Source: Sulfurimonas indica
GTDB taxonomy: Bacteria > Campylobacterota > Campylobacteria > Campylobacterales > Sulfurimonadaceae
Direction: 5' to 3'
Assembly (NCBI RefSeq): GCF_009192995.1
Contig: NZ_SDID01000004.1
Coordinates: forward strand, 1-64,000
Length of the DNA stretch: 64,000 bases
The notes beneath the pieces were generated by a model that worked only from the letters and a program-made list of their open reading frames with translations, made no database searches and was not told the DNA's origin. Positions 33,884 to 36,819 of this stretch are shown here, piece by piece. A program made the translations under genes and the position numbers. The number at the start of each line of letters is the position of its first letter. Position 1 is the stretch's first letter.

Positions 33884-34768
33884 ATGATAACTTTTAGTGA
33901 GATGTTACTTAAACTTCAAGAATTTTGGATGAAACAGGGGTGTAATATTGTACAGCCTTATGATATTCCAGCAGGAGCAGGAACATTTCATCCTGCTACA
34001 TTTCTTCGCTCACTAGACTCTACTCCTTGGGCAACAGCTTATGTTGCACCCTCACGCAGACCGACAGATGGACGCTATGGAGAGAATCCAAACAGACTTG
34101 GAAGCTACTATCAGTTTCAAGCACTCATAAAACCTTCTCCTGACAATATTCAGGAACTTTACCTACAATCATTAGAATATCTTGGACTTGATGTAAGTAA
34201 ACATGATATCCGTTTTATTGAAGACAACTGGGAATCTCCAACACTTGGTGCTTGGGGACTTGGTTGGGAAGTATGGCTTAATGGTATGGAAGTAACACAG
34301 TTTACTTACTTTCAACAGGTTGGAGGCATTGAGTGTTCTCCTGTAGCAGTTGAGATTACTTATGGGACAGAGCGTTTAGCAATGTATCTGCAAGGGGTTG
34401 ATACTGTCTTTGATATTGTTTGGAATGAGGCACCTGATGGAAGTAAGACACTCTACAAAGATGTGCATAAAGAGAGTGAGATAGAGTTCTCTAAGTACAA
34501 CTTTGAAGTAGCTGATACGGCTATGCTCTTTGATGAGTTTAATGCTAAAAGTGCAGAGTGTATGCGTACTCTTGAAGCAGGACTGCCACTACCTGCATAT
34601 GATCTGTGTATGATGGCGTCGAACGTTTTTAATGTACTGGATGCAAGAAAAGCTATCTCTCAGACAGAACGTCAAAACTATATCTTAAAAATCCGTGAAC
34701 TCTCACGTGGATGTGCTGAACTCTACAAAGCACAAGAAGAAGAGCGTAATAAAAGAGTAAACAGTTAA
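33884..34768 (+). CDS. glyQ: glycine--tRNA ligase alpha subunit
   Basis: A 294-residue catalytic subunit of the bacterial alpha2-beta2 glycyl-tRNA synthetase. Typical blocks are [40 protein letters not shown] and [12 protein letters not shown]. Length is normal. The beta subunit gene glyS is not next to it, as is also the case in Campylobacter and Helicobacter. It is followed by a 242-base structured gap and recG. Confidence 0.98.
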
Positions 34769-34813
34769 ATCTTTCATTTTGTCATATTTTTTTAGAGTTT
34801 TTTGATTTTTTGT

Positions 34814-34819
34814 TAAAGT
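34814..34819 (+). promoter_or_regulatory. possible promoter of the structured intergenic RNA
   Basis: TAAAGT preceded by TGT gives a weak extended -10 element behind three T-tracts (34787-34793, 34798-34803, 34806-34811). The predicted start is G34826, three bases before the first hairpin of the RNA candidate. The hexamer matches the consensus at only four of six bases. Confidence 0.35.
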
Positions 34820-34825
34820 TGTAGT

Positions 34826-34970
34826 GTTCCTACCGATTATTCGGTAGGACAAATTCCAGACTGTAAGAGGTCGCTTTTGAAGCGATTTACCCTAAAAATC
34901 AAGCTAAAATTTAGACCTTTTAGCTTGAAAATAGAGGTAAGTGGACATTAAGCCCACTCCTTAGTCTGGT
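34826..34970 (+). ncRNA. candidate structured RNA or recG leader
   Basis: Between glyQ and recG five helices form from perfect Watson-Crick arms: CCTACCGA/TCGGTAGG (34829-34836 with 34841-34848); a closing stem CCAGACT/AGTCTGG (34856-34862 with 34963-34969) that encloses TCGCTT/AAGCGA (34871-34876, 34880-34885), TTACC/GGTAA (34887-34891, 34936-34940) with an 11-pair hairpin inside it (34899-34909, 34918-34928), and GTGG/CCAC (34941-34944, 34954-34957). That is a free hairpin plus a multibranched domain of about 115 bases. No protein frame runs through it and no T-tract follows. I cannot match it to 6S, SRP, RNase P, tmRNA or a known riboswitch. Strand is inferred; a minus-strand TATAAT lies at 34971-34976. 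Confidence 0.5.
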
Positions 34971-35010
34971 ATTATAACAAAAAAATAAAAATTCGTAAAT
35001 GGATTGAAAG

Positions 35011-36819
35011 ATGCAACTCACAAAAGAGCAAGAAGCAAAATTTAAAAAACTTGGTATTAATTCTATTAGCGAGCTTGCTCTTTTAATTCCCCACTCTTAT
35101 GAAGATTATCGGCTTCAAGAGAAGCTCATACCTCACGCCAACCAACTTATTGATGCAACTGTTGAGTCTGTTTATCGTGCTCCTAATTCCATTCAGATAA
35201 CCTTTTTCGCACATAATTTTGGACATAGAGTAACAGGTGTTTTGTTTCGTCCCAAGCCTTATATGATGCATCAGTTTAAGGTAGGGGATAGAGATTACTA
35301 TTATGGAATGATAGAGTGTAAGATAGGAAACTGTTCTATGAGTATGCCAAGAAAAGTTACAAGTATTGGACAAATTACTCCTAAGTATAAATCTGCACTC
35401 AGGAGCGATGTGATGTTTCGCCTTACTCGTGAACTTCTTAACTTTGAGAACTTGCGTGAGGAGAGGCTTCCTGAGAAGATTATAGAAGAAGTTTTAGCAC
35501 TTCATTTTCCAACTCTAGAAGTTCTTCAAAACAGAGAGTTAAGCCAAGAAGCTGTAGAAGCTTTAAAATATTTGGAACTCTATAATTATATGAAACAACT
35601 CTCTCTCAAACGAAGATATTTTCAGCCATTGGTATCAAAGAGAGGTTTTTATGATGCTTTTGTGAACTCATTACCGTTTCAACTTACAGATGAGCAGCTA
35701 AAGACGATACAAGATATACAAAAAGATTTCGCAAAAAGTGTAGCAGCAAAACGTATGATAGTCGGAGATGTTGGTAGTGGTAAGACTATGGTTATCTTAG
35801 CAGCTGCAATTATGATGATGCCACAGAGGTCAATTCTGATGGCTCCCACAACTATTTTAGCAAACCAGCTTTATGAGGAGGCTCTTAAATATTTGCCACG
35901 AATGAAGATAGCCCTTGTGGCAAATAAAAGGAAAAAAGCTTCGTTAGAGGAGTATGATTTTATCATTGGAACACATGCCCTCTTGTACAGAGAATTACCA
36001 GAAGCAGCACTCGTTATGGTTGATGAACAGCATCGTTTTGGAACACAACAGCGAAATATGCTGGAAAAACTGATATCAAAGGGAGAAAAAAAGCCTCATT
36101 TCCTGCAATTTTCTGCCACTCCAATTCCTCGAACTTTAGCGATGATAGAGTCTGCACATATTGATGTGAGTCTTATTACATCTACACCTTATAAAAAAGA
36201 TATTGATTCTCGAGTCATTCATAAGAGTGATTTTAAAGATTTGCTATTACATATAAAAAGAGAGATAGAGAAAAAAAATCAGATTCTTATTGTTTATCCT
36301 TTGGTTGAGCAGAGTGAAGTCTTGGATTATCAGAGCATTGATGAAGCACGTGAGTACTGGGAGAGAAATTTTAAAAATGTTTATATTACCCATGGAAAAG
36401 ATAAAGAAAAAGAGCAGGTTTTGCTTGATTTTCGAGATAATGGAGATATCCTTATCTCAACTACTGTAGTAGAAGTAGGTATATCACTGCCAAGGCTTAC
36501 AACAGTTGTTATTGTAGGAGCTGAGAGATTAGGACTTTCAACTTTGCATCAATTGCGTGGGCGTGTGAGTCGCACAGGGCTTAAAGGTTACTGTTTTTTA
36601 TATACGAATCAAAAAAGCTCGGAACGACTTGATGAGTTTGTAAAGACCAGCAGTGGTTTTGATATAGCAAATCTTGATCTAAAGTATAGAAAAAGTGGTG
36701 ATCTGCTTAAGGGAATAAATCAAAGTGGTTCACAATTTAAGTGGGTGGATTTTATAGAAGATACTCAGATAGTACAAAAGGTAAAAGAAGATCTGCTTCT
36801 TTTACCTAAAAGTGATTAA
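35011..36819 (+). CDS. recG: ATP-dependent DNA helicase RecG
   Basis: A 602-residue superfamily 2 helicase that regresses stalled replication forks and moves branched DNA. An OB-fold wedge region (60-150) is followed by helicase motifs: Walker A GDVGSGKT at 252-259, DEQH at 338-341 then RFGTQQR, FSATPIPRTLA, and STTVVEVGISLPRLT and HQLRGRVSRTG near the end. It is about 90 residues shorter than E. coli RecG, with a reduced N-terminus. The ribosome binding site before the ATG is weak. The end overlaps hpf by four bases. Confidence 0.95.
   Translation: MQLTKEQEAKFKKLGINSISELALLIPHSYEDYRLQEKLIPHANQLIDATVESVYRAPNSIQITFFAHNFGHRVTGVLFRPKPYMMHQFKVGDRDYYYGMIECKIGNCSMSMPRKVTSIGQITPKYKSALRSDVMFRLTRELLNFENLREERLPEKIIEEVLALHFPTLEVLQNRELSQEAVEALKYLELYNYMKQLSLKRRYFQPLVSKRGFYDAFVNSLPFQLTDEQLKTIQDIQKDFAKSVAAKRMIVGDVGSGKTMVILAAAIMMMPQRSILMAPTTILANQLYEEALKYLPRMKIALVANKRKKASLEEYDFIIGTHALLYRELPEAALVMVDEQHRFGTQQRNMLEKLISKGEKKPHFLQFSATPIPRTLAMIESAHIDVSLITSTPYKKDIDSRVIHKSDFKDLLLHIKREIEKKNQILIVYPLVEQSEVLDYQSIDEAREYWERNFKNVYITHGKDKEKEQVLLDFRDNGDILISTTVVEVGISLPRLTTVVIVGAERLGLSTLHQLRGRVSRTGLKGYCFLYTNQKSSERLDEFVKTSSGFDIANLDLKYRKSGDLLKGINQSGSQFKWVDFIEDTQIVQKVKEDLLLLPKSD

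Follow-up and report, generated by a model that had tools for sequence, protein, structure and literature searches.

The gap between glyQ and recG in Sulfurimonas indica holds, on its recG side, a folded stretch that is likely to be a type I toxin-antitoxin module with a layout like that of aapA/IsoA. In the window, by which we mean the whole 64,000-nucleotide stretch of DNA analyzed here, 242 bases separate glyQ (stop at 34768) from recG (start at 35011), a gap of 34769 to 35010 that the sequence-only reading had measured correctly; the parts of the element span 34811 to 34979 (Table 1). That reading had taken the structure for an orphan small RNA or a recG leader in a gap with no coding frame. 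The gap does contain a coding frame, and neither an orphan small RNA nor a recG leader is now the best reading: the plus strand carries a 24-codon ORF whose peptide is conserved in relatives, a -10 box is conserved on the minus strand, and related elements occupy other genomic sites.

Table 1 Parts of the element in the glyQ-recG gap, in window coordinates.
Feature	Position	Strand	Basis
Toxin mRNA extended -10, TG-T-TAAAGT	34811-34819	+	Sequence; aligned to TATAAT/TATGAT in L041 and L057; predicted
Toxin mRNA start	about G34826	+	Predicted
Free 5' hairpin of the mRNA	34828-34849	+	Folds; compensatory changes in the type A equivalent
Closing helix P1, 5' strand, CCAGACT	34856-34862	+	Fold; P1 in 33 of 33 elements, sequence varying
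Shine-Dalgarno, AAGAGG	34865-34870	+	Sequence; 6 bases 5' of the start codon
Start-codon hairpin P2, TCGCTT-TTG-AAGCGA, start codon as loop	34871-34885	+	Sequence; minimum free energy (MFE) folds of relatives
Type B ORF, 24-aa peptide MKRFTLKIKLKFRPFSLKIEVSGH, TTG start, TAA stop	34877-34951	+	10 loci; codon test; HMM match
Mid-ORF hairpin P3	34899-34928	+	Folds
Hairpin P4 around the stop codon	34941-34957	+	Minus-strand fold; plus-strand centroid
Closing helix P1, 3' strand, AGTCTGG	34963-34969	+	Fold; in the region proposed to mask the Shine-Dalgarno
Candidate antisense antitoxin RNA extended -10, TGTTATAAT	34971-34979	-	Sequence; family-wide box
Proposed antisense RNA start	about 34964	-	Predicted; heads towards glyQ

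The peptide encoded in the window, which we call type B, is conserved at 10 loci in two families, whereas most relatives with an intact element at the glyQ-recG site carry a different ORF, type A, of 25 codons (consensus MKYLNxILKVLTIIYIIVKIxxELN). To assess coding, we used a codon test in which the observed substitutions are repositioned at random, applied to pairs inside one divergence band (198 of 210 pairs for type A, 40-41 of 55 for type B, the latter taking in L247 despite its ATC start codon). These results bear on the view that the element is a structured non-coding sRNA and the ORF a by-product of its conserved helices. Such an RNA would agree with the very stable fold on both strands and with the weak toxin-side signals of the window, and the codon test was weak when limited to the first three type B sequences (z of 1.77, 2.22, and 1.24, and 1.82 in one other frame). 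With 11 type B sequences, however, the frame stands out, with an in-frame mean z of 2.35 and 88% of values above 1.64, against 1.02 or less in the other frames; type A behaves likewise (in-frame mean 2.41, other frames 0.60 or less). Moreover, the type B peptide is 24 codons long in all ten intact copies, with the start codon and Shine-Dalgarno in constant positions, and in all ten, positions 4, 6, 8, 10, 12, 15, 17, 19, and 21 are hydrophobic. We therefore regard a purely non-coding RNA as unlikely.

The two peptides differ in character. Type B peptides have a net charge of +5 to +9 and a hydrophobic moment that peaks at 180 degrees, and type A peptides peak at 105 degrees, as for an amphipathic helix (14 of 21 peptides used). 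In residue pattern, the type B peptide is thus cationic and beta-patterned and the type A peptide helix-patterned. Neither corresponds to a family in Pfam or NCBIfam; the type A peptide gave one sub-threshold match at chance level in NCBIfam. The ORF is lost or broken at some loci: at L056, L084, and L177 the hairpin, the closing helix, and the minus-strand -10 box are kept and the peptide ORF is mostly or wholly gone, L154 has a stop at codon 2, and L247 has ATC as its start codon. Loss or breakage of the ORF while the RNA frame remains would be expected if the encoded toxin were costly and dispensable. At two further loci, L246 and L249, these three parts likewise remain, and little or nothing of the peptide ORF is left. 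We also observed a type B-like peptide that stands without the RNA frame (MKKFKLKLAFRVWKLKVNFLV, L278 1501-1563, G144:C1:1904957).

The fold itself is far more stable than that of shuffled sequence, in line with the view of the sequence-only reading that such pairing is rare by chance: the plus strand reaches -58.4 kcal/mol (z -7.05) and the minus strand -61.6 kcal/mol (z -8.80), and 0 of 200 shuffles were as good on either strand. Folding from G34826 onward gave a z of -8.61. Across the family, all five helices were present in the MFE structure of 31 of 33 elements, compared with 17 of 1320 dinucleotide shuffles. The two that fell short were L163, with a weak 5' hairpin, and the window, whose plus-strand MFE has another stem where P2 and P4 would be; each of these hairpins is in the MFE of 10 of the 11 type B elements, the window being the exception. 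The free hairpin and the closed domain of about 115 bases described earlier hold, and the five perfectly paired helices were slightly too strong a statement, although the centroid and the minus-strand fold of the window retain separate hairpins.

Covariation supports the same structure. P1 was found in 33 of 33 elements, and its strands diverge in sequence (CCAGACT, TCCAACCAAGG, GCCAAAAGGAGG, and others) but stay complementary, and RNAalifold on the type A elements gave changes on both sides in 13 of 30 pairs. Compensatory changes in relatives, which the sequence-only reading had named as the test of a structured RNA, are thus present. Pairs of the type A Shine-Dalgarno vary from G-C to G-U, which favors the plus strand as the one that folds. 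The plus strand was the better fold in 23 of 33 elements and the minus strand in the other 10, including the window. With the 3' strand of P1 deleted in silico, 21 of 22 type A elements had a Shine-Dalgarno predicted to be more open, and for the window the predicted value rose from 0.43 to 0.64, a weak effect; at L041 and L057 this truncation left the predicted Shine-Dalgarno unfreed. We saw no conserved terminator on either strand of the elements. The minus strand of P3 in the window resembles a terminator (a stem, then TTTTT), but by eye this site is not conserved, and we therefore did not place the antisense 3' end there; in an antisense RNA of full length, the free hairpin at the 5' end of the mRNA would lie at the 3' end.

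No RNA in Rfam matched the element at the gathering score, in line with the earlier failure to recognize a known RNA, and nothing credible appeared at E up to 10; the best sub-threshold match was BjrC1505, at 24.1 bits against a gathering score of 50. What the element has in common with Rfam structured RNAs is a compact fold. The only gathering-score Rfam match in the window was the purD RNA motif (RF01069, 60888-61022, plus strand, 62.5 bits), which is perhaps the Campylobacterota 6S RNA.

We then examined how the element is distributed. A DNA search of 60 genomes, including that of the window, returned one full-length homologue (G013, 80%) and several relatives sharing only the promoter and 5' hairpin. 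We located glyQ in 123 of 135 genomes of the genus and fetched the downstream sequence from 100 of these. In 37 of the 100, recG lies close after glyQ, and sorting these by eye gave 12 with an intact element, 4 with a remnant, and 21 with none; one genome whose GlyQ is 98% identical (G020) lacks the element at this site. Among the 12 intact relatives, 10 carry the type A ORF and two carry type B, as in the window. An HMM of type A matched 24 of 135 genomes, and 22 matches were kept, of which 12 lie elsewhere than in the glyQ-recG gaps that we fetched; we dropped L164 (unrelated sequence near a contig end) and L165 (inside another frame), and L154 was kept for structure and left out of the peptide alignment. 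In another search, one of four matches (G096) was left out. Class-wide, type A was found in 7 of 397 genomes, including three from two other families, with the same layout. The records VCAX01000048.1 and VCAY01000028.1 are ALBOsym2 and ALBOsym3, symbionts of the vent snail Alviniconcha boucheti that PMC7580541 compares within Sulfurimonas.

To connect the two types through structure rather than peptide, we trained a covariance model, R1, on the 22 type A elements, with no type B sequence among them; for the given loci, we quote only matches to loci free of type A. The 22 training sequences match by construction. R1 found the window element at 44.5 bits (E 1.5e-7 among the given loci). Searched against the whole genome (G000), it returned the window element as its only match (44.5 bits, E 3.6e-6), and L041 and L057 scored 56.2 and 54.9 bits. 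In the genus search, with an E cutoff of 0.1, R1 matched 38 of 135 genomes and turned up new loci. The 11 regions that we read yielded further type B peptides at L245, L247, L248, L254, and L255; L250 looked like a chance match, and L252 and L253 resembled remnants or degenerate type A. A type B HMM built from seven peptides then added elements in G060, G160 (another genus of the same family), and G058 (another family), each with the promoter, hairpin, P1, P2, P3, P4, and a minus-strand TATAAT. R1 was significant for L256 and not for L257 or L258, which we counted in on anatomy and peptide. In all, this HMM pointed to 29 places in 25 genomes; of the 11 read, we kept G060, G160, G058, and the G144 element (start ATC), in addition to the window, and judged seven, L278 among them, to be chance matches or to lie outside the frame. 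The remaining places were weak and stayed out of the counts. In one further search, matches in 10 of 11 genomes were judged to be chance, several of them antisense to an apparent P-loop gene that we take to be ParA-like.

This distribution bears on two other explanations. The element could be a leader or attenuator with a leader peptide, controlling recG in the window and a small membrane protein in the type A loci, since recG begins 34 bases downstream on the same strand and a membrane protein of 33-37 aa directly follows 22 of 22 type A elements. Yet 21 of the 37 glyQ-recG relatives do without the element, unrelated genes lie downstream of type B elements at other places, and a leader would have no need for a conserved minus-strand -10 box. 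Since relatives also carry the element elsewhere in their genomes, its location is not bound to recG, and we consider a leader quite improbable. The element is patchily distributed, is missing from some sites, and occurs at more than one genomic location. This would also suit repetitive or small mobile DNA (a palindrome of the REP or MITE kind) or a hairpin that acts as DNA, for instance a recombination site, but promoters, Shine-Dalgarno, and peptide are conserved and the element is present as a single copy in its own genome. On that last ground we rejected a repeat or mobile element, and we regard this whole class of explanation as very improbable.

The small membrane protein is single-span (consensus MENLEDxxLTLIIVxMVFMIGNLxKRVKKLE) and is possibly a partner of the type A element. 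Its HMM matched 33 of 135 genomes of the genus, and none of the matches fell in G000, G013, G084, G060, G114, G129, G131, or G133, which have intact type B only. The family is encoded just after each element at L142-L163 and also exists without the element; further copies were seen at L046, L064, L084, L097, L098, L106, L129, and L132. The region L251 207-400 (G149:C60) encodes a second type A-like peptide, a divergent one (MKRDFIDTLLKVLKAIYLILQILKEF), after which comes a protein related to the small membrane protein but longer.

What points to a possible second transcript is the minus-strand box. A TATAAT-like box lies at the edge of P1 in 33 of 33 elements, and TGNTATAAT is present in 27 of the 33; this motif occurs 5 times in the 64-kb window, where 4.47 occurrences are expected. 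The conserved box sits beyond P1, 3' of the ORF. In the window it is a perfect extended -10 and, from its sequence, a candidate antisense promoter.

The type I toxin-antitoxin module to which these features point has its closest parallel in aapA/IsoA of Helicobacter pylori. PMC6733600 describes aapA/IsoA as having a small membrane-type peptide ORF, a stem-loop at the 5' terminus, a long-distance interaction between the 5' and 3' ends that conceals the Shine-Dalgarno until 3' trimming relieves it, and an antisense RNA promoter on the opposite strand; the -10 box of IsoA3 lies inside the toxin ORF. The element resembles this arrangement in its small peptide ORF, 5' stem-loop, long-distance helix, and opposite-strand promoter (predicted here). 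It differs in having its candidate antisense -10 box at its 3' end rather than inside the ORF, and in that the type B peptide is beta-patterned and cationic, not a helix. We rejected homology to AapA1: the type B HMM scored it at 0.0 bits, with 979 of 2000 shuffles as good, and the type A HMM (14 of 21 peptides) gave no score. Searches for an aapA locus for comparison of the frames returned no match in 19 and 11 genomes or in plasmids; lacking a positive control genome, they show nothing. Membrane type I toxins are described as alpha-helical in the review PMC8309996. In pattern, the 25-aa amphipathic type A peptide, with its peak at 105 degrees, is like TisB, Ldr/Fst, and Hok, and type B, with its peak at 180 degrees and nine alternating hydrophobic positions, is unlike them.

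Based on these features, we infer transcription of both strands, 3' trimming, toxicity, and neutralization, as follows. The plus-strand promoter would drive an mRNA of at least 150 bases from about 34826, opening with a stabilizing hairpin and containing a domain closed by the 5'-3' long-distance helix P1. We propose that the primary transcript is poorly translated because P1 and P2 hold the Shine-Dalgarno and the TTG. If the 3' strand of P1 were trimmed away, the ribosome site would become free and the 24-aa cationic amphipathic peptide could be made; its probable target is the membrane of the producing cell. An antisense RNA, driven by the minus-strand extended -10, would start inside P1 and pair with the mRNA, and this pairing would either block translation or expose the mRNA to RNase III.

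To judge from its signals, the toxin arm appears weakened in the window. The TAAAGT at 34814-34819, seven bases before G34826, is weaker than the TATAAT that most relatives show at this place (by a tally over elements), and the Shine-Dalgarno is AAGAGG, as against AGGAGG at L041 and L057. Together with the TTG start, the weak -10 and weak Shine-Dalgarno make toxin expression doubtful in this species. Several further observations stand against the module: its peptides have no sequence relation to a proven toxin, the window folds better on its minus than on its plus strand, P2 and P4 are missing from its plus-strand MFE, the P1 truncation leaves the Shine-Dalgarno of L041 and L057 unfreed, and neither strand has a conserved terminator.

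More tentatively, and without favoring it over its negation, we suggest that a single RNA frame acts as a chassis on which unrelated toxin peptides can be exchanged, with type B being a type I toxin of non-helical fold. The chassis may comprise the promoter, the 5' hairpin, the long-distance closing helix, the start-codon hairpin, and the antisense promoter. At the glyQ-recG site, the frame may hold a helical hydrophobic peptide and its membrane-protein partner in some species and a cationic beta-hairpin peptide in others, including S. indica. At this site the window is 85% identical to two type A relatives, G033 and G022, over the promoter and hairpin, with nothing beyond these parts among the matches listed. 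This pattern suggests a retained frame in which the ORF domain was exchanged.

We also searched for the peptides on mobile DNA. Type B was not found in phages, plasmids, or viral contigs. For type A, the L171 peptide as query gave no match in plasmids and one in phages, a Helicobacter prophage; with the L147 peptide, none was found in phages, and none was confirmed in viral contigs. By tblastn, the prophage record (BK070158.1) contains an unannotated type A-like peptide at L174 2501-2578, accompanied by a hairpin, a Shine-Dalgarno, and a small downstream ORF, and adjoined by a putative antirepressor gene. A copy in a prophage record implies that the module also rides on prophage.

Our literature searches found no type I toxin-antitoxin system for Sulfurimonas, for which a prior listing in databases such as T1TAdb is possible, and nothing on the present element among publications on Campylobacterota type I toxins, a search that covered the literature rather than database-only records. 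If our interpretation is right, RNA-controlled modules of the aapA/IsoA layout would reach beyond Helicobacter into Sulfurimonas, vent-snail symbionts included, and into other Campylobacterota. They would bring with them two families of peptides so short that ordinary gene finding misses them, one of which would offer a class of cationic, beta-patterned peptides for testing as membrane-active agents. The covariance model would find such loci without relying on the peptide, and the pattern would suggest that the conserved unit of these modules is the control RNA and not the toxin.
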